Origin: Candidatus Brocadia sapporoensis
GTDB lineage: Bacteria > Planctomycetota > Brocadiia > Brocadiales > Brocadiaceae
Direction of reading: 5' to 3'
Length of the DNA: 64,000 nucleotides
Assembly: GCF_001753675.2 (NCBI RefSeq)
Contig: NZ_MJUW02000086.1
Coordinates: 1-64,000, forward strand
Shown here piece by piece: positions 6,554 to 63,837 of the stretch. The position numbers were made by a program, and so were the translations under genes. Numbering within the stretch: the stretch's first letter is position 1; each line of letters opens with the position of its first letter. Below the pieces are notes generated by a model, which saw only the letters and a list, made by a program, of their open reading frames with translations, did no database searches and had not been told where the DNA came from.

Positions 6554-7378
6554 TTACTCTTTAATCTTTTTTATCCGATTTTGCAAATAAGCATCCTGAA
6601 GTGCAATATAAGGGTCAATAGCTGGTTTTGTTACACTCTCATACGTATCTCCCTTATCTATTGAAAGGTTGTTGACAGATTCGTAGGTATAACTTCCTAT
6701 GCTTTCAAAAGATTGGAGAAAAAGAAAGGAAACCCATGTTAATGGATCCAACGCAGCATCGCCCAAAAGCCCCAGGGTATCACGAGTATTTGATGGGCCA
6801 ATAATAGGCCATACGATATAAGTGCCGGATTGCATATTGTATTTGCCAAGAGTCTGTCCAAAATCTCTCTCTTGTTTCTCAAAATGAAACTTCGATTTGG
6901 CAGGATCGAGAAATCCAGCCACTCCTACAGTGCTATTAATAACAAAACGCAACATTTCTGTACCTGCACCTTTAAAATTGGACTGAAAAAGACAATTGAA
7001 AAAGCGTACGGGCATCCTTATATTGGAGTAAAAATTTTTAACACTTACCCGTGCCTGTACCGGTATCATAGAATTATACCCGGTATATATTGGTTTAAAG
7101 AAATAATGAAAAACTTTATCATTGAAGACAAACATAGCTCTATTAAAAGGCCGAAGGGTATCTTTTACCGGCGGAATCTCCGCTTCCACCTCGGATTGCC
7201 CTGACTCAGATGACTCTCCATCATCGTCACTATTTCCAGAAACACGGTCTTCGCTTAACTTCCCACCAGATTGCTCTTCAGAAACAGAAATTGGTAAATC
7301 TTCCGCAGGCAATGCCTTCGCTGAAAAAAATGCTGTCAAAACGAAAATTAACATTACAACTATACATTTTTTCATCAT
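6554..7378 (-). CDS. mlaA: MlaA (VacJ) outer-membrane phospholipid removal protein
   Basis: A 274-residue outer-membrane component that removes mislocalised phospholipid from the outer leaflet and passes it to the periplasmic carrier MlaC. A signal peptide (about 1-25, ending KALPA) is followed by a low-complexity acidic/serine stretch at about 30-70. The MlaA domain then runs from DTLRPFNRAMFVFND to SNTRDTLG. The lipobox cysteine usual for MlaA is absent: the only early Cys is at residue 5, in the n-region. It may therefore be a soluble or differently anchored variant. Shine-Dalgarno GAGGGG precedes the start. It is the last gene of the mla operon. Confidence 0.9.
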   Translation of the reverse strand: MMKKCIVVMLIFVLTAFFSAKALPAEDLPISVSEEQSGGKLSEDRVSGNSDDDGESSESGQSEVEAEIPPVKDTLRPFNRAMFVFNDKVFHYFFKPIYTGYNSMIPVQARVSVKNFYSNIRMPVRFFNCLFQSNFKGAGTEMLRFVINSTVGVAGFLDPAKSKFHFEKQERDFGQTLGKYNMQSGTYIVWPIIGPSNTRDTLGLLGDAALDPLTWVSFLFLQSFESIGSYTYESVNNLSIDKGDTYESVTKPAIDPYIALQDAYLQNRIKKIKE

Positions 7379-7429
7379 TTGACCCCTCTTATAGAATAAT
7401 AAACTTTATCCTCAACAATTTCATTTCAT

Positions 7430-8047
7430 TTAGGTTTTTTCTTTATCGTTTTTCCCTTTTATTTTTTGAACAAGCTCTTCATACGATGATTTCATGAGGA
7501 TGTTGTTAAACTGGCTACGGTAATTATTGACCAAACTTACTCCTTCAATAACTACATCATAAATCTTCCACTTCCCAGAATTACTTTGCATACGATATTC
7601 CACCAATACTACAGATCCGGTATTTGTGATAATCTTGGTTTGTACACTGGCATAGTCTTTCTCATCTTGCTTCTCCTTGACAAAGACAATCTTTTCGCCA
7701 GAATAAGTATCGGTTTTACCGATATAGGCATCCTTCAGAATGATGGTAAAGAGTTCCACGAATTCTTTTTTTTCTTCTGGAGAACGTTTTTTCCAGTACT
7801 GACCAAGTGCCCTTTTCGACATTTCTTCAAAATTAAAGATAGGAGAAATTTCTTCCCACAATTGTTGCCTGCGAGTATGCGCTTTCTCCGTTCCTTTCAG
7901 GGAAGGATCTTTCAGTACTGCTAAACCCCTGTCTATTGTTTCCATAACAAGGGTTCCCGGATCTTCCGCAGCCCACAGGAAAGGAGATATAAATATTAAC
8001 AAAATTACGCCACAACAAATCGAAGATATCATTTTTCTCTTGTTCAT
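7430..8047 (-). CDS. mlaC: MlaC periplasmic phospholipid carrier
   Basis: A 205-residue periplasmic lipid-binding protein of the Ttg2D/MlaC family that shuttles phospholipid between MlaA and the MlaFED complex. An N-terminal signal peptide (about 1-26, ending LWAAE) is followed by typical blocks: FEEMSKRALGQYW at about 74-87, VEYRMQ, and KWKIYDVVIEGVSLVNNYRSQFN. Its ATG lies 4 bp after the mlaD stop and is preceded by AAGGAA. Length is normal for the family. Confidence 0.92.
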   Translation of the reverse strand: MNKRKMISSICCGVILLIFISPFLWAAEDPGTLVMETIDRGLAVLKDPSLKGTEKAHTRRQQLWEEISPIFNFEEMSKRALGQYWKKRSPEEKKEFVELFTIILKDAYIGKTDTYSGEKIVFVKEKQDEKDYASVQTKIITNTGSVVLVEYRMQSNSGKWKIYDVVIEGVSLVNNYRSQFNNILMKSSYEELVQKIKGKNDKEKT

Positions 8048-8051
8048 TTCT

Positions 8052-8498
8052 TTATTCCTTCACTTTTCCAAAAACAAAATTTCCTATTAACTTTTCTAAA
8101 TCAATTGGTGGCTCTGTTTCATGCAAGGTATCTCCAGGATGCAACAATTTTTCCGATCCACCGGGTGTTATTTCTACATACTTTTCCCCCAGCAGTCCTT
8201 TAGTACGTATAGAGGCGATAGAATCATCCTGGAGTTTTATATCATCCCGAATCCTTAAGTTAACAACGGCCTCGTAATTAACGAGTTTAATACTATCTAC
8301 CGTACCCACGGCAACTCCTGATATTTCTACCTCGGTATTTTTCTTGAGTCCTTTGACGGTGCTAAAAACGGCCTTTATCGGATAATAATGCCCCCCGATC
8401 AGATCAATTTTCCCCAGATTTACCGAAATAAAAATCAGACAAAGCATCCCAATAAAAACAAAGATACCAACGACAATTTCCACATCAAATTTCTTCAT
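8052..8498 (-). CDS. mlaD: MlaD, MCE-domain substrate-binding subunit
   Basis: A 148-residue membrane-anchored MCE protein forming the periplasmic ring of the phospholipid ABC transporter. One transmembrane helix (about 7-30) precedes a single MCE domain (about 38-116), with GLKKNTEVEISGVAVGTVDSI and the conserved GLLGEKYVEITPGG. Shine-Dalgarno AAGGTGA lies just upstream of the start. Confidence 0.93.
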   Translation of the reverse strand: MKKFDVEIVVGIFVFIGMLCLIFISVNLGKIDLIGGHYYPIKAVFSTVKGLKKNTEVEISGVAVGTVDSIKLVNYEAVVNLRIRDDIKLQDDSIASIRTKGLLGEKYVEITPGGSEKLLHPGDTLHETEPPIDLEKLIGNFVFGKVKE

Positions 8499-8527
8499 TT
8501 AATCACCTTTTTGAATATTGGAACATG

Positions 8528-9274
8528 TTATTTTAAAGAGATAGGGCCTTCCAATTCTCCGTGAATGAATTGATGAACCACAGGATCCAAGGAGGTCTTT
8601 ATTTCTTCCGGAGTTCCTGTAAAAATAATTTTTCCGTTGTACAGCATAGCAACATAATCCACAATAGAGAAAATAGCAGGAATCTCATGGGTTACAATAA
8701 TTGCGGTAAATTTGAGGCTCTTCTGGCACTCCCTGATCAATCTATGGATAGCTTTACTTATCAAGGGATCAAGTCCGGTGGTTGGTTCATCAAAAAGAAT
8801 TATCTCAGGATTCATAATAAGACAACGGGCAAGGGCTGTCCGTTTTTTCATACCACCACTGATTTCAGCCGGATATTTTTTCTTTGCGTCTGAGAGTCCT
8901 ACCCGGGATAACTCCTGTAGCACTTTATCCCTGATTATCGAATCGTTCAGCCTGGTCTTTTCCCTAAGCGGAAAGGCAACATTATCAAAAACGGTAAGCG
9001 AATCGAAAAGGGCTCCCCCCTGAAAAACAATGCCAAATCGCTCTTTTAATTGCTTCAGCGGCCTTCCTCTAACTTTACCGATATCCTGATTGTCTATCAA
9101 TACCCTGCCTTGATCGGGTCTGATGAGACCAATAATATGTTTTAATAATATCGATTTTCCTTGACCACTGCCGCCAATCAAAGCCATGGAACATCCTTCT
9201 TCGATTGTTAAGTTAACACCACGGAGCACCGCCTGATCTTTAAAACTTTTGTATAAGTCTACAACCTTAATCAT
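8528..9274 (-). CDS. mlaF: MlaF, ATPase of phospholipid ABC transporter
   Basis: A 248-residue ABC ATPase. Walker A GGSGQGKS is at 34-41, signature ISGGMKKR at 138-145, and Walker B IILFDEP at 158-164, followed by the family GLDP. The signature uses GGM rather than GGQ, as is common in MlaF. Its start lies 2 bp after the mlaE stop, which indicates tight coupling. No mlaB (STAS) gene follows, so the complex either lacks it or the gene is elsewhere. Confidence 0.94.
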   Translation of the reverse strand: MIKVVDLYKSFKDQAVLRGVNLTIEEGCSMALIGGSGQGKSILLKHIIGLIRPDQGRVLIDNQDIGKVRGRPLKQLKERFGIVFQGGALFDSLTVFDNVAFPLREKTRLNDSIIRDKVLQELSRVGLSDAKKKYPAEISGGMKKRTALARCLIMNPEIILFDEPTTGLDPLISKAIHRLIRECQKSLKFTAIIVTHEIPAIFSIVDYVAMLYNGKIIFTGTPEEIKTSLDPVVHQFIHGELEGPISLK

Positions 9275-9276
9275 CT

Positions 9277-10122
9277 CTAATTATTAAGTACCATCACAGA
9301 AGTCATAAAATAATCCCAAATCAAAATCATAACCGATGAAAGCACCACCGATCGAATGGTTGATTTACTCACACCTTCCGCCCCGTATCCTGTAAAATAA
9401 CCCTTATAACAGCTTATCCATGTTATTAAAAATCCAAAGCTTATTGACTTGTACAAACCTTCAAGAATATCACGGGTTTTTATGAAATCTCTAATACCCT
9501 GGAAATAGGTCCCGCTGGATAAGTCCATGAGTCCTACGCTTATAGTATATCCCCCAAAAACACCCAGAACGACAAAGATAGCATTTAAAAGGGGAAGTGA
9601 CAGGATACCTGCGATTATATTGGGAACGATCAAATACTTGTGAGGGTTTAAAGCCATGGCATCGAGGGCGTCTATTTGTTCAGTTATCCTCATGATACCA
9701 ATTTCAGCCGTTAATGCAGAACCAGCGCATCCCGTAACCATTAAGGCCGAAATGACCGGCCCCAGCTCCCGTATTAAAGACAACGCTACCACCGGACCTA
9801 CACTTGATTCAGCGCCAAACTTGGCTAAGGCGTAATACGTCTGTAATGCCAGAACCATTCCCGTAAATGAACCCGTCAGCACGATAACAGGAGTAGTTTT
9901 AACACCAATAAAATTGATTTGCTTAATAATTCGTTGTATCAAATATGGAGGGAACATCATCCAAAAAAAGGATGTGGCAATAAAACAAACCATTTTCCCT
10001 AATTCACGTATGAATCTATGAGTATAACTTCCGATTAATTTAAATGGGGTAAGTATCCAAATCATGAATGAATTTTTACAAAAAATGTCTCCTAAAACCT
10101 CTCTTAAAATCCGTGATCTCAA
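9277..10122 (-). CDS. mlaE: MlaE, permease of phospholipid ABC transporter
   Basis: The inner-membrane permease of the MCE-type transporter, with about five or six hydrophobic segments and the family block LIRELGPVISALMVTGCAGSALTAEIGIMRITEQIDAL. The frame opens with TTG 10122 (281 residues). ATG 10065 gives 262 residues, closer to the usual 255-265, but neither start has a convincing Shine-Dalgarno. It is the first gene of the operon mlaE-F-D-C-A, transcribed leftward. Confidence 0.92.
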   Translation of the reverse strand: MRSRILREVLGDIFCKNSFMIWILTPFKLIGSYTHRFIRELGKMVCFIATSFFWMMFPPYLIQRIIKQINFIGVKTTPVIVLTGSFTGMVLALQTYYALAKFGAESSVGPVVALSLIRELGPVISALMVTGCAGSALTAEIGIMRITEQIDALDAMALNPHKYLIVPNIIAGILSLPLLNAIFVVLGVFGGYTISVGLMDLSSGTYFQGIRDFIKTRDILEGLYKSISFGFLITWISCYKGYFTGYGAEGVSKSTIRSVVLSSVMILIWDYFMTSVMVLNN

Positions 10123-10843: not shown

Positions 10844-11220
10844 GTCGAGTAGACGGCGGAATTACTCCTGCCATCCCTCACAGAACCGTGCATGCAGAAT
10901 TACTGCACACGGCCCTTCAAACAGATTCACTGAGTAGAAGAGCATATCCAACTGTAACCTTTCACAATGCTGGGTTTTTTGGTAAGGGACGCCTTTTCAG
11001 CAGCACATGGAAATCATTTCAATTAAAAACCTTCCTTTGGCTGCGCCTATTCAGCCATTTGTACCATAAGCCTTCTGACGGCATAGCTAAATTTGGACAA
11101 CGTCAGACTGTTTCTTGCAAAGCCGCAGCAGTTGTAATATCCCTTCAAGGCTAGACATAGGCGTTTATGCAATTCATAAAACGGTAGCATATTTCTTAGT
11201 TTTCTGAGCCTGTCGTTCAG
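10844..11220 (-). pseudogene. 3' fragment of a group II intron with decayed maturase
   Basis: Read on the minus strand, 11220 to 10921 encodes the C-terminal part of a group II intron reverse transcriptase/maturase. Recognisable blocks are LCLALKGYYNCCGFARNS, SKFSYAVRRLM, then in a shifted frame WLNRRSQRKVFN and FHVLLKRRPLPKNPA, then KGYSWICSSTQ. Frameshifts and stops (one where a Trp codon is expected) show decay. Domain V follows at 10915-10882: GGCCGTGTG, a short loop, then CATGCACGGTTCT. A domain VI-like hairpin ends with CTACTCGAC at about 10844. The intron 5' part and the catalytic RT domains are missing. Confidence 0.82.
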
Positions 11221-53297: not shown

Positions 53298-53327
53298 CAA
53301 ATACTTTGTAATGTGAGGTTTTTTAAG

Positions 53328-54794
53328 ATGAGGATTTTATTGTGTTCCATGCCCGACACGGTTCCCCAGTTTTCTGCTAAGACATGGAGGGCTCCCAACC
53401 TTGCTATCTCTTCTCTCGCGGGAAATATTCAGCCACACCATGATGTGGCACTTGCTGATCTGGTACTCAAAAGAAACAACTTATTACCTTCTCTAAAAAA
53501 AGCTATTGAGGATTATCAACCGGACATAATAGGATTAAGTGCCATGACGTTCCAATTTGATACAGCGAGAAGGATCGCAATGTTTATAAAAAGTTTGTGG
53601 AAAGATATAAAAATAGCCATTGGCGGGTATCATGCTACTCTTATGTATGAAGAAATTGCTTCTGCTGACGATGATAATCCTTTTGATTATATCGTACGCG
53701 GAGAGGGTGAAGAAACCTTTCGTGATTTATTGGAAGCAATGGATGGCGGGCGCGAATGGAAGGATATTCCTGGTCTGTCCTATCGTCATAATGGAAGATT
53801 TTTGCATAACCCACCAAGACCGTTAGAGAACTTGGATACCCTGAAGCTCCCGCGGAGGGATGTCCGCATTTGGAATGATTACCTCTTTTCCGGGAAAGTA
53901 CTGGATATGGTCGAAACATCGCGTGGTTGTACAATGACCTGTAATTTTTGCAGCATGAACCGTATGTATGGACGTACGTTCAGGGCATACAGCTTTGATA
54001 GAATTATGCAAGACCTTGCAAACGCCAAAAAATTCGGGGCGAAATATATAGCTTTTTCAGATGATAATATCACTTTAAACGTAAGGAGGTTTGAATCCTT
54101 ATGTGACGCCATTGTCGAAGCAGGGCACAATGATCTCCGTTATATTGTGCAGGCAAGTACATCAGGTATTGCATCATCTCCAACATTAGCTCTAAAAATG
54201 GCACGTGCGGGGATACAAATTGTATTCCTGGGGATTGAGAATGTATCTGAAAGAAATTTAAAAATCATGAATAAGGGAGGTATGCTGGAAAAGACAAAGA
54301 AGGCCATCGATTACCTGCACTGCAACAACATTCTTATCGTCGGTGGGATGATTCTTGGTCATGCAGAGGACAAGGAAGAAGATATTGCCCAAAACTTTGA
54401 ATTTTTTGACAAGGCCGATATCGATTTTTATGGTGAACAGATTATTACTCCTTACCCGAAAACAGGCATGCGTGATATTTTAATCAAAGAAGGACTTGTC
54501 ACCAATGTAAATAATTATAAAAAATACAATGGTTTTTGGGCGAATGTGAAGACAAAGTACCTTTCATCGGATGATTTACAATTTTTACGATGGAAATATA
54601 AACGGAAATACTCCACATTTTTTAAAACAACACCAGCGTTTAAGGCTAATTTCTTAATAGTTAACCTCTTGCGGGTAATCGTCTTAAGGCCGTTTTACCG
54701 AATTAAAAATTTCTTTGCCTCAATAGGTAAAACAGAACGAGACATGTTTGAAAAAGATATGAAGAGGTTTGCCGAGATGAACAAATTTTTTTGA
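53328..54794 (+). CDS. B12-binding-type radical SAM protein, copy 1
   Basis: A 488-residue protein from ATG 53328 (GTG 53313 is open; GAGG lies nine bases before the ATG). The N-terminal 150 residues resemble a cobalamin-binding fold (IAIGGYHATLMYEEI, VRGEGEETF). The radical SAM core carries CxxxCxxC at C201, C205, C208 (RGCTMTCNFC). The C-terminal region (YPKTGMRDILIKEGLV, AEMNKFF) is shared with copy 2. The reaction is unknown; members of this class methylate or rearrange unactivated carbon. In anammox bacteria, radical SAM proteins have been proposed in ladderane lipid synthesis; that link is a hypothesis only. Confidence 0.87.
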   Translation: MRILLCSMPDTVPQFSAKTWRAPNLAISSLAGNIQPHHDVALADLVLKRNNLLPSLKKAIEDYQPDIIGLSAMTFQFDTARRIAMFIKSLWKDIKIAIGGYHATLMYEEIASADDDNPFDYIVRGEGEETFRDLLEAMDGGREWKDIPGLSYRHNGRFLHNPPRPLENLDTLKLPRRDVRIWNDYLFSGKVLDMVETSRGCTMTCNFCSMNRMYGRTFRAYSFDRIMQDLANAKKFGAKYIAFSDDNITLNVRRFESLCDAIVEAGHNDLRYIVQASTSGIASSPTLALKMARAGIQIVFLGIENVSERNLKIMNKGGMLEKTKKAIDYLHCNNILIVGGMILGHAEDKEEDIAQNFEFFDKADIDFYGEQIITPYPKTGMRDILIKEGLVTNVNNYKKYNGFWANVKTKYLSSDDLQFLRWKYKRKYSTFFKTTPAFKANFLIVNLLRVIVLRPFYRIKNFFASIGKTERDMFEKDMKRFAEMNKFF

Positions 54795-54806
54795 ATAATT
54801 CTCAGT

Positions 54807-54930
54807 GCTGTTCGGATAAAAATTTGCAAATCGTATTTTATTCTTCGCGGGAGGTCATTCTCTCATATTTCTAGCGGGCATCCTTGAAGTTTAGGGTTCG
54901 CTGGAACCCTATAAAGGCTCCCTCTGTGTC
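54807..54930. repeat. Degraded relative of the MITE at 10346-10532
   Basis: GCTGTTCGGATAAAAATTTGC at 54807, then GGAGGTCATTC and CTAGCGGGCATCC, parallel the left half and middle of the 10-kb element. The right terminal repeat is not recognisable, so this copy is truncated or diverged. Confidence 0.5.
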
Positions 54931-55075
54931 AATAATAGTTGGACACTTTAACCCATAGAGTTTTGTGTAGGGTATAAAGTAGGAAAAATCCGAAGACAAA
55001 AAAAACTTGAAAATATAGCAGAATCTCCTACGTGCCGCACACGCTTTGCCAGGTTGTTCTTGCTTCACAATACTC

Positions 55076-55798
55076 CTAACTTTTTATCGCAAATAATTCT
55101 TTATGTTGTTTGTAGCAATCCCAGCAAGCAGGCTTATTGATTGTTGAAGCGTTATCTTTGCCACAAACATGACAACTTTTTTCCTGATGCGAAAGGTTCT
55201 CATACTTTTTCCAACTCTTATAACATTCGGCGCAATAAGGAGCAGAAGGATCCAGTGCAATTTCTTTCTTGCAACGGATACAAAACCCCTTTTTGCCGTT
55301 CGTAGCTTTTTTGTCGCCTTTTTTTTCTGTCGGCTTGCCCTTAGATTCTACAATCTTTTCAACAGACAGGCGAACTTCGTCGCTGATACGGATTAGTCGC
55401 CGTGCTTCATTGTAAATATCATCATACAACTGTGAGTCATCGGCTTTCGTGACATAAATTCCCATCTCTTGATTATTGACCTGCGAAAACTCATACAAAT
55501 TCATCGAAGTAACTACTGCTTCGCTCTCATTCAAATAACACTTTGCATGTAAGTTTTCGCAAAAACTCGTCCGCACGGACTTAAGCGACTTGAGCCAGAT
55601 AATTTGGTCGGGCTGTAACTCGTTTTTGCCATATACTACCCGAACATCGATTTTCATGCGATCTTTATCATCTAAAGATTGGCGCAAACGTTCATTGATT
55701 TTCAAATAGGGACTAATCAAAATAAGTGTATCATTAGATTGGTTTATCAATTGCTGAAGATGATAAGAAACACCAGTTGTATCAAGAAACTTAGCCAC
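55076..55798 (-). CDS. PLD-like protein with C-terminal zinc ribbons
   Basis: 240 residues. The N-terminal 150 residues have a single phospholipase D-superfamily half: DTLILISPYLKINERL at the start, and an HxK motif in ENLHAKCYLN followed by AVVTSMNL. The C-terminal 75 residues hold two cysteine ribbons (CIRCKKEIAL...CAECY and CHVCGKDN...CWDCY) that suggest nucleic-acid binding. A DNA nuclease or helicase-associated role is possible. It is on the minus strand, downstream of the Mrr-like gene. Confidence 0.75.
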   Translation of the reverse strand: MAKFLDTTGVSYHLQQLINQSNDTLILISPYLKINERLRQSLDDKDRMKIDVRVVYGKNELQPDQIIWLKSLKSVRTSFCENLHAKCYLNESEAVVTSMNLYEFSQVNNQEMGIYVTKADDSQLYDDIYNEARRLIRISDEVRLSVEKIVESKGKPTEKKGDKKATNGKKGFCIRCKKEIALDPSAPYCAECYKSWKKYENLSHQEKSCHVCGKDNASTINKPACWDCYKQHKELFAIKS

Positions 55799-55910
55799 AG
55801 TTATTCTCCTATATACAAAAAAGTCTATTGCTATTTTACTTTACGTTCATTGCACCAAGAACAGTCCAACGCTTCAGTACTTCAGCAGTGAACAAGCGGC
55901 CGCATTCCAA

Positions 55911-55951
55911 GCCTAACGCATGTGTGAGTCGATTGGAAACACTTGTTAGCC
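55911..55951 (-). repeat. attC-like inverted repeat at the end of the Mrr-like gene
   Basis: On the minus strand, GGCTAAC (55951-55945) and GTTAGGC (55917-55911) bracket a 41-bp site. CTAAC/GTTAG and an inner GTGT/ACAC can pair, leaving a small loop. The gene stop TAA lies inside the first box and the second box fits the GTTRRRY core. This is the arrangement of an integron cassette recombination site, but it is shorter than known attC sites (57 bp upwards). Confidence 0.4.
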
Positions 55952-56749
55952 AGACGCCACTTCGGTGTAGCGGCAGTTCGGAAAGTTCTGGCAGCCCCAA
56001 AACTTGCCCCCCGTATTCGCGCCGCGTCTTGCGGTCCTGAGCACCAGGTCTTTACCGCATCTTGGGCACGTGCGAGCGGAGACAGTTAGTGCGGATGATA
56101 CCGCCGTAATTGCTGGCGTCGCTTGCAACGTACTAATCATGCGGACGAGGCCATCGCCGTCGATGAGTTCGATGTGCTGCGCGGTCGCGAAGTCAATAGA
56201 CTCTTTGGTGAAAACACCGGAGGTTACAACGATCGCGCCTGTTGCGCCGTGCGCTGCCATGAGCCCAAGCATCTCTCGTACGACCTTCACCCCGACCTTG
56301 TGGGTCTTCCAGTGCTTGCACTGGACGAGATAGGTATTGCTCCCACGCTTGATTGTCAGGTCGATACCGCCGTCTGTGCCCTTATCGGGGTTCTCGAAAA
56401 CCGTGAAACCCTGCCGACGGTAAGCTTCCCCGACTAGCTCCTCAAACCGCTTCCATGGGAGTGAACGGATAGATCCAATCCCATTCTGCCGATCTAGCAT
56501 GCGCCGTTTACCGGCTGACTGAAACATCGAGACCATAGCAGGAAATGCGAATATTACTGATATCCACGCAAACTGCGAGGTCGCGCCCGCTAATATACCC
56601 AACATAGTCTTCGGGTTAGACCAGATTATTGGAAATGCAAAGCGCAAGGCCGCGTATGAAATACCTCCAACAAGCAAGCTTGTCCACCAAGGCGCATCCG
56701 TTAGAATATCAAATAACGCCTCGAGCGCACTCAGATTCCGACGTGCCAT
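55946..56749 (-). CDS. Membrane-anchored Mrr-like restriction nuclease with zinc finger
   Basis: 267 residues. Two N-terminal hydrophobic helices (about 20-38 and 45-70) are followed by an Mrr-type PD-(D/E)xK nuclease domain (about 98-210). It contains FEELVGEAYRRQGF, the catalytic DGGIDL and QCKH, and VVREMLGLMAAHGATGAIVVTSG. A C-terminal topoisomerase-type zinc finger ends the protein (CPRCGKDL...FWGCQNFPNC). GC content is clearly above the flanks, indicating recent acquisition. GGAGG lies 6 nt before the ATG. Probable role: restriction of modified or foreign DNA. Confidence 0.87.
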   Translation of the reverse strand: MARRNLSALEALFDILTDAPWWTSLLVGGISYAALRFAFPIIWSNPKTMLGILAGATSQFAWISVIFAFPAMVSMFQSAGKRRMLDRQNGIGSIRSLPWKRFEELVGEAYRRQGFTVFENPDKGTDGGIDLTIKRGSNTYLVQCKHWKTHKVGVKVVREMLGLMAAHGATGAIVVTSGVFTKESIDFATAQHIELIDGDGLVRMISTLQATPAITAVSSALTVSARTCPRCGKDLVLRTARRGANTGGKFWGCQNFPNCRYTEVASG

Positions 56750-56959
56750 GCATGACCTCCTGTGTTTAAACGAAGGATTGTCATTATTCCGTTTCTAACC
56801 ATTTGCCTACCTCCTTTATGTTTAGACACTTTTGAAAAAATTGACAAACTAAGACAAATAACGATCGAGCTAAGCAGTGCAATGTTTTATTGGCATCTGC
56901 TCGAGCGATTTGTTTGTCCTTGCCTTTATTCATGTTTTCCATGTGGTCCTTTATTTAGC

Positions 56960-57575
56960 TGTTTATTTTATGCAGATCAAATGCACGTATAAAAATCCTT
57001 CATCCCTTTATCGCCATTAGTAACAGCCTGTTTATTGATTTTAATAAAATACCTTTTCCGTGCCTCTGTTTGTGATTAATTTTTCTTTAGAAGGTTATGT
57101 TTCATGCATAAGGTTCGTCCGTTATCAACAAAATTGCCGCCGCTGAGGTCTTTCGGATTTATGGTCTGCAAAAATTTTAATGCTATTATCGGATGTTACC
57201 GAGTAAATCTTAGAAAGTCATCCAGCTTAATATGGTTTGCACAGATCCCAACGCCTTCTTTTCGTACTCATCCACATACGATGCTTTTATAAATATCTCT
57301 TTTAAATGTTTCCTCTTTAATTTCTGAAGATAATCAAATAGTTCAACTTCTTTAATTATGGTCAGGATTATAACGATAAATGCCTTTGCTAACCTTGATT
57401 AATTTTCCTTCTTGCTGCAAGTCTGCGGATTGCACTTCAAGTGTTCCTTGACGGTACAGGGTTATCTTTAAGATATTATTCTGTAACCCGATCTACAACA
57501 GATCCATGTTTGAGGTCTTTTTTAGGTGTTTTTTGAAAGAAATCCATGATTAAGTCGCTAATGCTTTTTTGTCAT
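56960..57575 (-). pseudogene. Decayed HNH restriction endonuclease
   Basis: Read on the minus strand from ATG 57575 (with GGGAGG upstream), several frames together give ISDLIMDFFQKTPKKDLKHG, a helix-turn-helix-like LQQEGKLIKVSKGIYRYNPDH, then VELFDYLQKLK and the HNH part: VRKEGVGICANHIKLDDF, DNGRTLCMKHNL and RYFIKINKQAVTNGDKGMKDF. Frameshifts and stop codons are many, so it is dead. It resembles type II HNH nucleases with a winged-helix N-terminus. Confidence 0.7.
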
Positions 57576-57619
57576 TATCAGCCTCCCGTTGCGATATCAA
57601 AATGGAGATGATTTATTTG

Positions 57620-57790
57620 TTCTTTTATCAAAAGGCGGCTTTTTGCTAATTCTCAGTATTTCCTTTCTATGTCAATACCTAGGCCTTTTCGGCCAGTCTT
57701 TATACGAACGAGTAAAGTTAAACAGCCGCCAGGGAAGGAGCAATGGCAGTATCCTCAGGAAAAATAAAAAGTTTTGTGCGAATTCCCGGC
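57620..57790 (-). pseudogene. C-terminal remnant of a DNA methyltransferase
   Basis: On the minus strand a short stretch reads IKTGRKGLGIDIERKY-stop-ELAKSRLL, the usual last conserved block of N4/N6 adenine or cytosine methyltransferases (ends of the DPFxGSGTT region). It is directly upstream of the HNH remnant, in the M-then-R order of a type II system. Upstream (to about 58430) short coding-like segments occur in several frames but I cannot assign them. Confidence 0.5.
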
Positions 57791-59000
57791 AGTTCAACGT
57801 AAGTGGAGGATAATTAACCCTTTTTCTCATTCTCCATAAAGGCTCCACACGTCAGGTGCATGCGTTTGACTTACAGAAATTGCTTGAAATCTATCATGTT
57901 TTATATTCTGTCACATTTTCAAATACAACGGATTGATAATCATTAAGACTCAGCACCGTATCCTATAAGCCAATAACTTCTCCTTTGTGTTTATTGATTC
58001 CAGTATAAACCAAACTGGCATCTTCATAGCGTTGAATTTATACACGGCATCGTTCAGTAATGCGTTATTGAATATGTTGAGACTAGCCAGAAATTCAAAG
58101 TCTTTAACCTCCAGTGGAGAGAGAAATCTTTTGAGTATTGAAATTGAGGGGTTTGAAGATTTCTCCGTTCGATTGAAATGACAAAAGTATGTGTTTTCGC
58201 TCAGACACTACGTAGGTACAAACCTCTCCACAAGGATTAGGCTTGTAGAGATGGTATTTTTAACCACTCGGGCACTTCGTACTTCAAGGGCACTTTACCT
58301 GAGCAATGTATGTCTCAATAATGAAGGAAATGCAGAAAAGCTACAAAGATTACCATGCCTCCGCGATCCAGCCAAAAACGAGATCGGACTTTTATTTGTT
58401 AGCCTGGACAAATATTAGCATACTCAACTACAGGACGAGTTGGTGACTCTGAATATTCGTAAATCCATTGCCGATTGTTCGCGGAAAATTTGTCTTTTTT
58501 GTCTCTGCTAACCCATAACCCAGCTGTGGGTTCTACAGATAGTAGCCAAAGTCGGTGGCATGAGGCTGGGCTGGATGAATGTGAGGAATCAGTTTCGCCA
58601 GATATTTGAAGAGACGGATAGCCAGTGAGAGCGAAGAGTGCGATTCACAGTGTAGCAACTTTACCGGTAACAGCCGGCATTACTTCAGAAGAGATGACTG
58701 GCTGCGTAATGGTGAAAATCGCTTATAGAATAAATGGTAAATAGTCTCCGGTAGACATGGAACTGCCATGGAGGTTTTAAGGTCTTTCTCTTGAGGCGAA
58801 GTATTCTTTCCTGTATATAACTAAATATTAATTTCATTTATTTACTTAAAGCCACTTGAGTTACCAAAAAAGCAAGGATTGAATTTCCTTGAATGACTTG
58901 AAAATACTGATAAAATGTAACAAGAAAAGTCTCTGGTTTGTTTCGTGATAAACAACAGGAAGAATTTGGTTGAATAATTATCTGCGAAAAAGAAAAAGAT
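57791..59000. other. Decayed, unassigned DNA
   Basis: This 1.2-kb stretch before radical SAM copy 2 has only short frames. On the minus strand near 58000-58180 a segment LSPLEVKDFEFLASLNIFNNALLND looks coding but is bounded by stops. It fits continued decay of an acquired island. Confidence 0.4.
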
Positions 59001-60464
59001 ATGAACATACTTTTAATGTCCATGCCCGATTGTGCTCCTCATTTCAATGCAAAGCGGTGGAAGCCGCCAAACCTTGCAATCTCATCGATTGCAGGCAATA
59101 TTGAGGGGCATAACGTTTTTATAGCAGATCTTATTCTCCGGAGGGAACGTATTCCTGAAACCGTTAAAGACCTGATTGCAAAATATCGTCCGGATGTGGT
59201 TGGGCTGACGGCCATGAGTTTTCAATTTTCAACGGCCCGAAGGATAGCGAGTCTTATAAAAAATCTCAATAAAGATATTAAAATTATCCTGGGCGGGTAC
59301 CACGCCACGCTTATGTACGATGAAATAAGCAAAAGCGATGAGTCTGCCCCCTTTGACTTTCTCATTCGCGGAGAAGGAGATTTGTGTTTTGATGAATTGT
59401 TAAAGGCTATAAACGGTGAGAGATCTGTTAATAGTGTTCCGGGCGTTTCCTATCGTAATTACAATGGTTTTACTCACAACTCCCCACGTCCTTTGGAAGA
59501 CCTGTCGAAGATCAAAATACCGGATCGCTCCAAACGGATATGGAAGGGATATCAATATTACGGCTTTACCCTGGATATAGTAGAGTCTTCCCGCGGATGC
59601 ATTATGCCCTGTAATTTTTGTAGCATGGACAAGATGTATGGTAAGACATTCCGAAGATTTAGCGTGGAAAGGATGCTCGCTGACATCTCTGACGCCAAGC
59701 AGCAGGGAGCAAACTTTATCATCTTTTCGGATGATAACTTTACTTTAGACATCAAAGGATTTGAATCTCTCTGTGATGCGATTGTTAAGGCCGGACATGA
59801 TGATGTTCGGTATATCATCCAGGCAAGCAGTTCAGGCATTGCGTCCTCCGATACCCTTGCGGAAAAGATGGCCCGGGCTGGCTTCCGTATCGTCTTCCTT
59901 GGAATCGAAAACGTCTCAGAAGAAAATTTGCGACTCATGAAGAAGGGAAATATTATTGAAAAAACAAAACTCGCGGTTAAGCGATTACATGAACAGAACA
60001 TCATGATTGTCGGTGGTATGATTATCGGTAACCCGAATGATAAGGAAGAAGATATTGCCAGGAATTATGAATTTTTTGTAGATCTGCAAATAGACTTCTT
60101 TGCAGATCAGATACTTACTCCTTATCCCAAAACCGGCATGCGGGATGAATTGTTGAATGCCGGACTGGTGACAAATATCCATGATTATAGCCGGTACAAT
60201 TGCTTTTGGGCAAATATCAAAACAAATTATTTAGGACCGGAAGACATCCAGTTTCTCAGATGGAAATACAACAGGAAATACGCAAATTATATTTGCACGA
60301 CTCCGGCCTTTATTAAAAATTATCCTCTCGCCTATTATTATCGGCAGTACTTGAGGAGGCCATTTTTAAAGCTTAAAAATAAATTTTTCAGAAATAATTT
60401 AACTGAGATAGAAGCATATAAGAAGGATATGGCAAGGGCAGAGGCTATGAATAAATTCTTTTGA
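59001..60464 (+). CDS. B12-binding-type radical SAM protein, copy 2
   Basis: 487 residues, clearly paralogous to the 53.3-kb gene over its whole length: MNILLMSMPDCAPHFNAKRW, KIILGGYHATLMYDEI, radical SAM cluster C200/C204/C207 (RGCIMPCNFC), DDNFTLDIKGFESLCDAIVKAGHDD, the YPKTGMRDELLNAGLV block and AEAMNKFF at the end. By eye roughly 60% of residues match. It probably shares a reaction class with copy 1. The DUF362 gene follows after 239 bp. Confidence 0.87.
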   Translation: MNILLMSMPDCAPHFNAKRWKPPNLAISSIAGNIEGHNVFIADLILRRERIPETVKDLIAKYRPDVVGLTAMSFQFSTARRIASLIKNLNKDIKIILGGYHATLMYDEISKSDESAPFDFLIRGEGDLCFDELLKAINGERSVNSVPGVSYRNYNGFTHNSPRPLEDLSKIKIPDRSKRIWKGYQYYGFTLDIVESSRGCIMPCNFCSMDKMYGKTFRRFSVERMLADISDAKQQGANFIIFSDDNFTLDIKGFESLCDAIVKAGHDDVRYIIQASSSGIASSDTLAEKMARAGFRIVFLGIENVSEENLRLMKKGNIIEKTKLAVKRLHEQNIMIVGGMIIGNPNDKEEDIARNYEFFVDLQIDFFADQILTPYPKTGMRDELLNAGLVTNIHDYSRYNCFWANIKTNYLGPEDIQFLRWKYNRKYANYICTTPAFIKNYPLAYYYRQYLRRPFLKLKNKFFRNNLTEIEAYKKDMARAEAMNKFF

Positions 60465-60703
60465 GTATTTTGTTGTAATATTCTTTTCCTTTGCTATATT
60501 GTTAACTGTAACGTGAGAAATTATTCTTTTTAACAATTTTTTATTCGTACCCTCCTAACACCCCTTTAGGTCTATTGTAATCACTCAATTTAACGGGGGG
60601 ATTGGTTTATGGCTTTGCAGTCAATGAGTACATTACTGGTTTCCAGCGTGCAGTTTTTGTTATTTAAACAGGTTTTCTTGATACATTTAGAAGAGGTTAT
60701 TTT

Positions 60704-61894
60704 ATGCCAACCGTATCGATCGTTAAATGTAGCGATTATGACTTAGAAAAGGTTTATCATTCCATTCATAAGTCTTTAAGCTTGCTCAATGGCATTGACA
60801 AGATGATTAGACCTGGCATGAAGGTGCTTTTAAAACTTAATCTCCTTTCCTCTTCTCAACCACCGGAAAGGGCTGTAAATACGCATCCCATCGTGATAAG
60901 GGCTCTTGTTAGAATATTTCAAAAGGATTTTGGTTGCGATGTTTCTATTGGAGATTCCTCCGGCAGCGTAAAGAACGCTTCTACCTTTAATGCATTTCGA
61001 ATTACCCGCATCAATGAAATCGCAGAGGATACCGGTGCGAAGATTGTTAATTTTGATAAAGATGAGTATATTGACGTTTACAATAAAGATTATGAAGTTT
61101 TAGATAAGTTCCGTATTGCCAGGTCACTGCGAACGGTGGATTTTGTGGTTTCAGTGCCCAAACTGAAAACCCATGGTTTAACGCAATATACCGGCGCGAT
61201 AAAAAACATGCTGGGCAGCATTCCAGGCAATGGAAAAAAGAACGTGCACCTGATTGCGCCTAAACCAACAGTATTTGCAAAAGCTCTGGTAGACATTTAT
61301 CATATGGTACAACCCCATCTTATTGTAATGGATGCCATTGTGGGAATGGAGGGAAATGGACCCAATGCCGGCCAACCGAAAAAGGTGGGTTTGATTTTAG
61401 CCAGCCAGGACAGTGTTGCTCTGGATGCGGCAGCGAGCAGTATTATCGGATTTGAACCCATGGCTATACCGACTATACGGTTTGCACATCAGCGTGGATT
61501 GGGTGTTGGTGTGCTCGATACCATCAACGTAGCCGGTGAAACTATTAATGACGTATCCGTTCCTGATTTTCAAAAACCTTCCAGCGGTGCCCAGGATTTT
61601 GCCGGAAAATATCTGCCCGACTTCCTTCTGGCTATGATGTTTGACAGTACCTGTTCCACATTTTCTACAGTAAATCATTCGAACTGTACGCGGTGTTATG
61701 AATGCATAAGGAATTGCCCTGCCGGCGCTATGTCGAAAGAGAGTGGCAAGGTGATTGTTGATAAGAAGAAATGTATCGGATGTTTTTGTTGTGATGAAGT
61801 GTGCGATTTTCATGCAATCGAAATGAAGCGCTCGCTGCTGGGAAGAACCCTTCTGGGCATGGCAAAGGCTCTTGGTGTGGAAAAGGTAGAATAA
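60704..61894 (+). CDS. DUF362 domain ferredoxin-like protein
   Basis: 396 residues. An N-terminal DUF362 domain of about 300 residues has GMKVLLKLNLLSSSQPPERAVNTHP, PKLKTHGLTQYTGAIKNMLG and VMDAIVGMEGNGPNAGQPK. It is followed by two [4Fe-4S] cluster motifs: C328, C331, C334, C338 and C357, C360, C363, C367. DUF362 proteins are poorly known electron-transfer candidates. Position after the radical SAM gene suggests it may supply electrons to it. mgtE starts at the next base after its stop. Confidence 0.87.
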   Translation: MPTVSIVKCSDYDLEKVYHSIHKSLSLLNGIDKMIRPGMKVLLKLNLLSSSQPPERAVNTHPIVIRALVRIFQKDFGCDVSIGDSSGSVKNASTFNAFRITRINEIAEDTGAKIVNFDKDEYIDVYNKDYEVLDKFRIARSLRTVDFVVSVPKLKTHGLTQYTGAIKNMLGSIPGNGKKNVHLIAPKPTVFAKALVDIYHMVQPHLIVMDAIVGMEGNGPNAGQPKKVGLILASQDSVALDAAASSIIGFEPMAIPTIRFAHQRGLGVGVLDTINVAGETINDVSVPDFQKPSSGAQDFAGKYLPDFLLAMMFDSTCSTFSTVNHSNCTRCYECIRNCPAGAMSKESGKVIVDKKKCIGCFCCDEVCDFHAIEMKRSLLGRTLLGMAKALGVEKVE

Positions 61895-63259
61895 ATGGAA
61901 TTGCAGTGGACGAAGATATTTCTTCCCGAAATAAAAGAACTTATCGAAACCAAGGATTTCAAAGGATTGCGTGATTTTCTTCGGGAGCGCCATCCCGCTG
62001 ATATTGTGGATATCCTCCGTGAGCTTGATCCTACGGAGCGTGTCATGGGATTCAGACTACTTGACAAACGTAAAATATCCGAAGTCTTTGCCCTTGTTGA
62101 ACCGATGGAACAGGAAGAACTTCTTAAACGGTTTACTGAGCAGCATGCAAAAGAAATTTTGGTGCAGATGCAGCCGGACGATCGGACACAACTCTTTGAT
62201 GAATTACCGGCCCATGTGGTCGAAAAACTCCTGAAACTCCTCCCTCCGGCAGAACGCAAGGAAGCCAACGAACTTCTGAATTATCCTCATAACTCTTCTG
62301 GCCGTATCATGACCCCGGAATATGTAGATCTTCAAATGGGTATGACTGTAGCAGAAGCATTGGAACACATACGCAAAACTGGCCCAAACAGAGAAACGAT
62401 TTATATTTGTTATATCGTTGATGAGACAAAAAAGCTTCGTGGTGTTGCCTCTTTGAAGAATATTATTCTTGCCAGCCCTGACCAGTTTATTAAAGACATT
62501 ATGAATGAAAACGTCTTTTACGTTCATACTACCGATGATCAGGAAAAGGCAGTTCAGGTAGTTCAAAAGTATGATATTCTGGCAGTTCCCGTAGTGGATA
62601 ATGAAGACAGACTCGTCGGTATCGTTACCGTAGATGACGTGTTGGACGTTGTACAGGAAGAGGTAACAGAGGATTTTCAGAGGATGGCCGGTATTCACAC
62701 TACGGAAGAAGAATATTTTCGGGTGGGCTTTTCAAAACGAATCATCAACCGGGTTTCATGGCTTGTTATCCTGGTAATTGCCGCAACTATTTCACAAACC
62801 ATTCTAAAAAGTTATTCCGGAGTCCTCAGCTCCGTGATTGCACTCGCTTATTTTATTCCCATGCTTACGGGAACCGGGGGCAATACAGGGTCGCAGTCTT
62901 CTACCTTAATAATTCGTGCTTTGGCTACGGGAGAAATTAAATCGAAAGAATGGTGGAAGATTTTATTGTGTGAATTTAAGGTTGGCGTTTCGCTGGGGCT
63001 TATCATGGGTATTATTGCCTTTATCATTGCCGCACTATCATTGGGAAAAATAACAGTAGCTGCAATCGTGAGCGTTTCCTTGTGTATCGTAGTGAGTGTT
63101 GGCAATATTGTTGGCCTTGCGATACCTCTATTCTTCAGATTTATAAAACTGGACCCTGCCTTTGTATCTGCCCCGCTTATTGCTACACTTTTGGATGCTA
63201 CTGGTTTAGTGATTTATTTTGAGATTGCCAGAAGAACGCTCTCTAAGTCTGCCTCTTAA
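61895..63259 (+). CDS. mgtE: Magnesium transporter MgtE
   Basis: A 454-residue inner-membrane Mg2+ channel. The order is an N-terminal superhelical domain (about 5-130; RERHPADIVDILRELDP, MTPEY at about 140), a CBS pair (about 145-260) that gates by Mg2+, and five transmembrane helices in the last 190 residues, including ALAYFIPMLTGTGGNTGSQSS. It is adjacent to the DUF362 gene and likely in the same transcript, perhaps by chance. Confidence 0.95.
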   Translation: MELQWTKIFLPEIKELIETKDFKGLRDFLRERHPADIVDILRELDPTERVMGFRLLDKRKISEVFALVEPMEQEELLKRFTEQHAKEILVQMQPDDRTQLFDELPAHVVEKLLKLLPPAERKEANELLNYPHNSSGRIMTPEYVDLQMGMTVAEALEHIRKTGPNRETIYICYIVDETKKLRGVASLKNIILASPDQFIKDIMNENVFYVHTTDDQEKAVQVVQKYDILAVPVVDNEDRLVGIVTVDDVLDVVQEEVTEDFQRMAGIHTTEEEYFRVGFSKRIINRVSWLVILVIAATISQTILKSYSGVLSSVIALAYFIPMLTGTGGNTGSQSSTLIIRALATGEIKSKEWWKILLCEFKVGVSLGLIMGIIAFIIAALSLGKITVAAIVSVSLCIVVSVGNIVGLAIPLFFRFIKLDPAFVSAPLIATLLDATGLVIYFEIARRTLSKSAS

Positions 63260-63516: not shown

Positions 63517-63555
63517 AACATGCAATATTCTATACTGGCGGAAAGGAGTGATGAT

Positions 63556-63837
63556 TTGAATAATCAGAATAAATCATGCAAGGATAATGCAATTCTTTAC
63601 GGTCTCGCCTTTGACAACAAGGACAATCATAAAAGAATTACAACCGGTGAAGATTTTTACATTGTGGGCGGTTCTGCAGAAACTCATGATACTCTTGTTG
63701 AAAAGGTATTGGAATTCAGTGAGACGGTAAAAAAATATGGTAAAAAATTGAATGATCTTTCTGAATCTGAATTTCATACGATTGCAAAAGAAGTTTCCTC
63801 AAAAAACGAAAAAATGTATTGGTTATTTCACATCTGA
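63556..63837 (+). CDS. Unknown small protein, 93 residues
   Basis: A TTG start at 63556 with AAAGGAGTG 6 nt upstream is preferred; an ATG at 63520 in the same frame gives 105 residues. The protein is charged (KDNAILYGLAFDNKDNHK, EKVLEFSETVKKYGKKL), has no membrane segment, and has an aromatic C-terminus. No family recognised. Confidence 0.6.
   Translation: MNNQNKSCKDNAILYGLAFDNKDNHKRITTGEDFYIVGGSAETHDTLVEKVLEFSETVKKYGKKLNDLSESEFHTIAKEVSSKNEKMYWLFHI

Follow-up and report, generated by a model that had tools for sequence, protein, structure and literature searches.

The window, a 64,000-nucleotide stretch of contig NZ_MJUW02000086.1 of Candidatus Brocadia sapporoensis, carries towards its end two genes for cobalamin-binding radical SAM proteins, rSAM-A and rSAM-B (hereafter the twins), of which B is followed by genes for a DUF362 protein and an MgtE-type magnesium transporter (Table 1). 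The genome contains an HZS-alpha match and shares its GTDB genus with Ca. Brocadia pituitae, which bears out the original prediction of an anammox host. Since domain searches also found the HZS_alpha domain outside anammox bacteria, it was not used alone as a marker. The start of rSAM-A was placed at the ATG at 53328, the position at which its orthologues start; a longer open reading frame with a GTG start at 53313 adds 5 residues. The transporter scored 471.7 bits with TIGR00400 (cut-off 232.75), and its first base directly follows the DUF362 gene. Between copies A and B lie 4.2 kb with two genes on the opposite strand, so the conserved module consists of B, DUF362 and MgtE, with A merely nearby. 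The two intervening genes, PLD-like and Mrr-type, are missing from the corresponding site in relatives according to the locus comparison, and are possibly defence or mobile genes inserted in the Brocadia genome. Beyond MgtE, c7 is followed past the end of the window by a TPR gene and two more conserved genes, in an order shared by Brocadiaceae and Kuenenia stuttgartiensis. Within the window, no FAS genes lie near the twins and copy A has no PlsC gene alongside. The search for RNA elements near the genes, cobalamin riboswitches included, gave no match, nor did one for tandem repeats.

Table 1 Genes of the twin radical SAM locus, in window coordinates
Feature	Position	Strand	Basis
rSAM-A, cobalamin-binding radical SAM protein, 488 aa	53328..54794	+	Pfam B12-binding + Radical_SAM
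PLD-like protein, between the twins, outside the conserved unit	55076..55798	-	Pfam PLDc_2
Mrr_cat restriction-endonuclease-like protein, between the twins, outside the conserved unit	55946..56749	-	Pfam Mrr_cat
rSAM-B, cobalamin-binding radical SAM protein, 487 aa	59001..60464	+	Pfam B12-binding + Radical_SAM
DUF362 protein, C-terminal double 4Fe-4S domain, 396 aa	60704..61894	+	Pfam PF04015, Fer4
MgtE-type magnesium transporter, 454 aa	61895..63259	+	TIGR00400 above cut-off
c7, small conserved protein downstream of MgtE	63520..63837	+	Conserved gene order

Both twin reading frames are open, and both proteins contain PF02310 (B12-binding) and PF04055 (Radical_SAM) domains above the gathering scores, in agreement with the original description of two full-length paralogues with a B12-type layout and an intact CxxxCxxC motif. 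The proteins are 58% identical from end to end, and the three cysteines of the motif (C200, C204 and C207) are invariant. The fold of an AlphaFold model of rSAM-B matches those of TsrM, AprD4, OxsB and MgmA, and among proteins of solved structure MgmA was the closest by sequence (9ccb, E=9e-21); the entry 9ccb, considered for a time as a possible new relative, was dropped once the structure proved to be MgmA. On the basis of domain layout, motif and fold match, the twins are thus predicted to be cobalamin-dependent radical SAM enzymes.

A tree of the family (94 rows) placed A and B in two clades, each with members from Brocadiaceae, Scalinduaceae, Anammoxibacteraceae and a fourth family, f3. 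Support was 95% for the B clade and 83% for the A clade, which contains one long branch and is drawn open. Because both clades span the four families, the duplication is older than the split of the anammox families, and a recent duplication is ruled out by the tree. Within Brocadia, dN/dS was 0.05-0.08 for A and 0.04-0.08 for B, so both evolve under strong purifying selection. An additional family member, 44-49% identical to B, occurs in f3 after an O-methyltransferase-like gene (L101:8901-11476; also in L098, L100, L102 and L103).

A family member at E ≤ 1e-60 was present in 41 of the 62 genomes of the order Brocadiales. The 38 good genomes comprised 26 with at least two members, three with one and nine with none, and both twins co-occurred even in genomes where A and B are unlinked. 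The single-copy genomes were G036, where the start of B lies at a contig end, G013 and G022 (fragmented). Directly after an intact A, G013 carries a remnant of B in which about 33 N-terminal residues are fused to the C-terminal tail (L079:11431-11685). This genome is a case of recent loss of B alone, and since it retains A next to a mere remnant of B, the two copies are not strictly interdependent.

The nine good genomes without twins were a closed 4.4-Mb Kuenenia genome (G031; best match 27%), the complete genome G035 and seven genomes of the Scalinduaceae genus g20, all 13 genomes of which lack the twins. In those twin-negative genomes that were rechecked, the best matches were paralogues of 25-30% identity, and tblastn searches at five loci found no twin remnants at the former site. 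G031 is almost certainly K. stuttgartiensis, of the same genus as K. hertensis, and g20 is probably Scalindua in the strict sense. In K. hertensis, B is located between the M50 peptidase gene and DUF362; at the K. stuttgartiensis site, DUF362 comes after the M50 peptidase gene, MgtE and the genes normally found downstream follow, and B is missing. Likewise, g20 has no B between the pair of genes that enclose it in other Scalinduaceae. The twins have been lost in several anammox lineages, and the patchiness of the loss argues that their product is dispensable.

The original prediction had joined the twins and DUF362 in one coherent module, under a heading that also named MgtE. What holds of this is the order of B, DUF362 and MgtE, which is kept in about 29 loci. 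Copy A, on the other hand, stands apart, and the DUF362 gene was found in 57 of the 62 genomes at the threshold used (a distant paralogue in a few of them), twin-negative ones included, where it is 85% (Kuenenia, G035) or 63-66% (g20) identical. In Kuenenia without twins, MgtE still lies behind it. As DUF362, and in Kuenenia also MgtE, persist without the pair, the three genes form no obligate module, and this arrangement was rejected. The DUF362 protein itself (Pfam E=2.7e-58) has two 4Fe-4S motifs, whose cluster cysteines are all invariant across 13 orthologues. Searched with Foldseek, its model (mean pLDDT 63) returned LarA-like matches that were all weak; these agree with Pfam clan CL0471 but give no clue to function.

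We also looked at homologues outside the anammox bacteria. Among 392 sampled Planctomycetota genomes, E ≤ 1e-75 was reached by Brocadiales alone, while a wider GTDB scan recovered single homologues, 40-45% identical, from Desulfobacterota, plus one from an Elusimicrobia MAG. In addition, a planctomycete MAG that does not belong to the Brocadiales set (G418, JAADGH; loci L095 and L099) has three homologues of 43-52% identity. This MAG also gave eleven HZS_alpha-domain matches.

The gene neighbourhoods of these homologues point towards lipids. Of 23 Desulfobacterota loci, 18 have PlsC immediately upstream of the homologue, 12 have a preceding ketoacyl synthase (KS), 10 an ACP and eight a second B12-type radical SAM gene; the clusters often include a lipid-A-type acyltransferase and LolA. 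The neighbour profiles were built from these same loci, with the assignments confirmed by Pfam in one representative, and genes in GC-rich loci were called on all six frames. One such cluster (L110:4111-17791) encodes DegV/DAK2, a glycosyltransferase, a lipid-A-type acyltransferase, an ACP, a KS, PlsC, two B12-type radical SAM proteins and LolA, and is presumably similar to aryl-polyene clusters. Within Brocadiaceae, PlsC stands directly before rSAM-A in Loosdrechtia, Jettenia and G033 (PF01553, 97-107 bits). The anammox neighbours of B (DUF362, MgtE and TPR) are not lipid genes. Since acyltransferase, KS and ACP neighbours recur, an acyl or lipid substrate is the most likely one.

In line with the original prediction, which assigned the twins no reaction, no curated family fits. 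The top curated model for both was BchE (TIGR02026), the anaerobic Mg-protoporphyrin monomethyl ester cyclase, which likewise combines a B12-binding N-terminus with a radical SAM core. This best NCBIfam match would suit BchE-type tetrapyrrole enzymes supplied with magnesium by MgtE, but the scores of 165.9 and 168.6 bits are only a third of the equivalog cut-off of 481. Moreover, the Mg-chelatase BchH stays below its cut-off in the Brocadia genome itself and in all but one of 61 Brocadiales genomes, and DUF362 and MgtE are kept in Kuenenia without the twins. We consider a tetrapyrrole role very improbable, and the weak model scores and missing BchH led us to discard it. The sole Brocadiales match over the BchH cut-off lies in K. 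hertensis (G029:C49:4034-7480; 845 versus 829 bits), and the lower-scoring ones are probably CobN. The hopanoid enzymes HpnJ and HpnR are also B12-type radical SAM proteins and act on lipids; with their models, whose cut-offs are 578 and 650 bits, the twins reached 94-104. The solved structures of MgmA, TsrM, OxsB and AprD4 have a similar overall fold, but their identity to the twins is 15-19% and their substrates differ. A protein- or peptide-modifying C-methyltransferase like MgmA could nevertheless be envisaged, as MgmA is the closest of the solved structures by sequence and among the top folds, and the models of ApyD and RiPP radical SAM proteins came second or third by score. Against this, the ORFs of at least 80 aa beside either copy included neither a precursor peptide nor a conserved protein target in any lineage, and acyltransferase and ACP genes recur nearby instead, which makes such a role unlikely.

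The original prediction had further proposed the twins as candidates for unusual lipid chemistry, including ladderane steps. The lipid part is plausible given the contexts of the homologues; a necessary ladderane step is not supported. In favour of an essential role in ladderane ring formation are the B12-radical SAM type of the twins, their confinement to Brocadiales among the sampled planctomycete genomes, and the Scalinduaceae genus g19, where 7-11 kb and unrelated genes separate copy A from an ACP-FabZ-KS-KS-desaturase-rSAM cluster, an arrangement seen in this genus alone. However, K. stuttgartiensis (PMC2649909) and Scalindua (PMC3558802) make ladderanes, and the genomes almost certainly (G031) or probably (g20) theirs lack the twins, which are therefore not required for these lipids. 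The phylogenetic profile, with both copies missing from the closed Kuenenia genome, from g20 and from G035, speaks against a core ladderane role, which we reject as extremely improbable. The family also has members in Desulfobacterota and in the planctomycete MAG G418. TIGR04072 (rSAM_ladder_B12, lipid biosynthesis) resembles the twins in domain layout, occurrence in anammox bacteria and proposed lipid role but differs in distribution, and the twins scored 81.7 and 74.6 bits against its cut-off of 360.

Candidates for ladderane chemistry already exist in the radical SAM proteins of FASII clusters (PMC2649909, PMC4790861). In the Brocadia genome, contig C59 carries an ACP-FabZ-KS-KS-desaturase-rSAM cluster with the gene order of kuste3603-3608 (PMC4790861), and on contig C79 a paralogous radical SAM gene lies beside two KS genes (compare kuste2802-2805). 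These proteins share the B12-binding and radical SAM domains with the twins, but are embedded with ACP, FabZ, KS and desaturase genes and are only about 25-30% identical to them. Matches were found in all eight anammox genomes tested, including G031, G035 and G056, which is the profile expected of a ladderane enzyme; in G418, no orthologue above 36% was found. The comparison thus removes one tempting candidate and returns attention to the FASII-cluster proteins. A narrower version of a lipid role, in which the twins would tailor anammox lipids, ladderanes or others, in particular lineages, for example with side-chain methyls or cross-links, would fit both the lipid context and the patchy presence. 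As adjacency to the FASII cluster occurs in g19 alone, we judge it unlikely.

Our tentative preference, held a little short of even confidence, is that the twins belong to an uncharacterised family of cobalamin-dependent radical SAM enzymes, of which they form the anammox branch, and that they tailor lipids in an accessory role, with no obligatory part in ladderane synthesis. Because a model ladderane-making anammox species has lost both copies, the twins are probably optional lipid-modifying enzymes and not ladderane makers. With a [4Fe-4S] cluster, SAM and cobalamin, each twin would turn a carbon atom of an acyl chain or of a membrane-lipid precursor into a radical, which could lead to C-methylation or to C-C bond formation by ring closure or cross-linking. 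A and B may act at different positions or on different substrates of one lipid. The double-cluster DUF362 protein could supply electrons to B, and it must have a further role too, as it is conserved independently of the twins. The Desulfobacterota proteins, being merely 40-45% identical, may have another substrate.

A more specific scenario, which we offer as possible but doubtful, is that the pair descends from the ancestor of all anammox bacteria and places a C-C bond or methyl group on an undescribed membrane lipid, that some lineages (K. stuttgartiensis and one Scalinduaceae genus) gave it up, and that sulfate reducers use the same chemistry in a polyketide-like lipid cluster. The analysis defines an uncharacterised B12-radical SAM family that extends from anammox planctomycetes to sulfate reducers and has a recurring acyltransferase neighbour. 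K. hertensis, with twins, and K. stuttgartiensis, without them, form a natural pair for a direct lipid comparison.

Elsewhere in the window, the minus strand encodes an MlaE-type permease (9277-10122, 265 bits), beside which the minus-strand genes at 6554-9274 may form what we take to be a putative lipid ABC transport operon. A match to a group II intron catalytic domain was found at 10844-10917 on the same strand (45 bits; gathering score 40).
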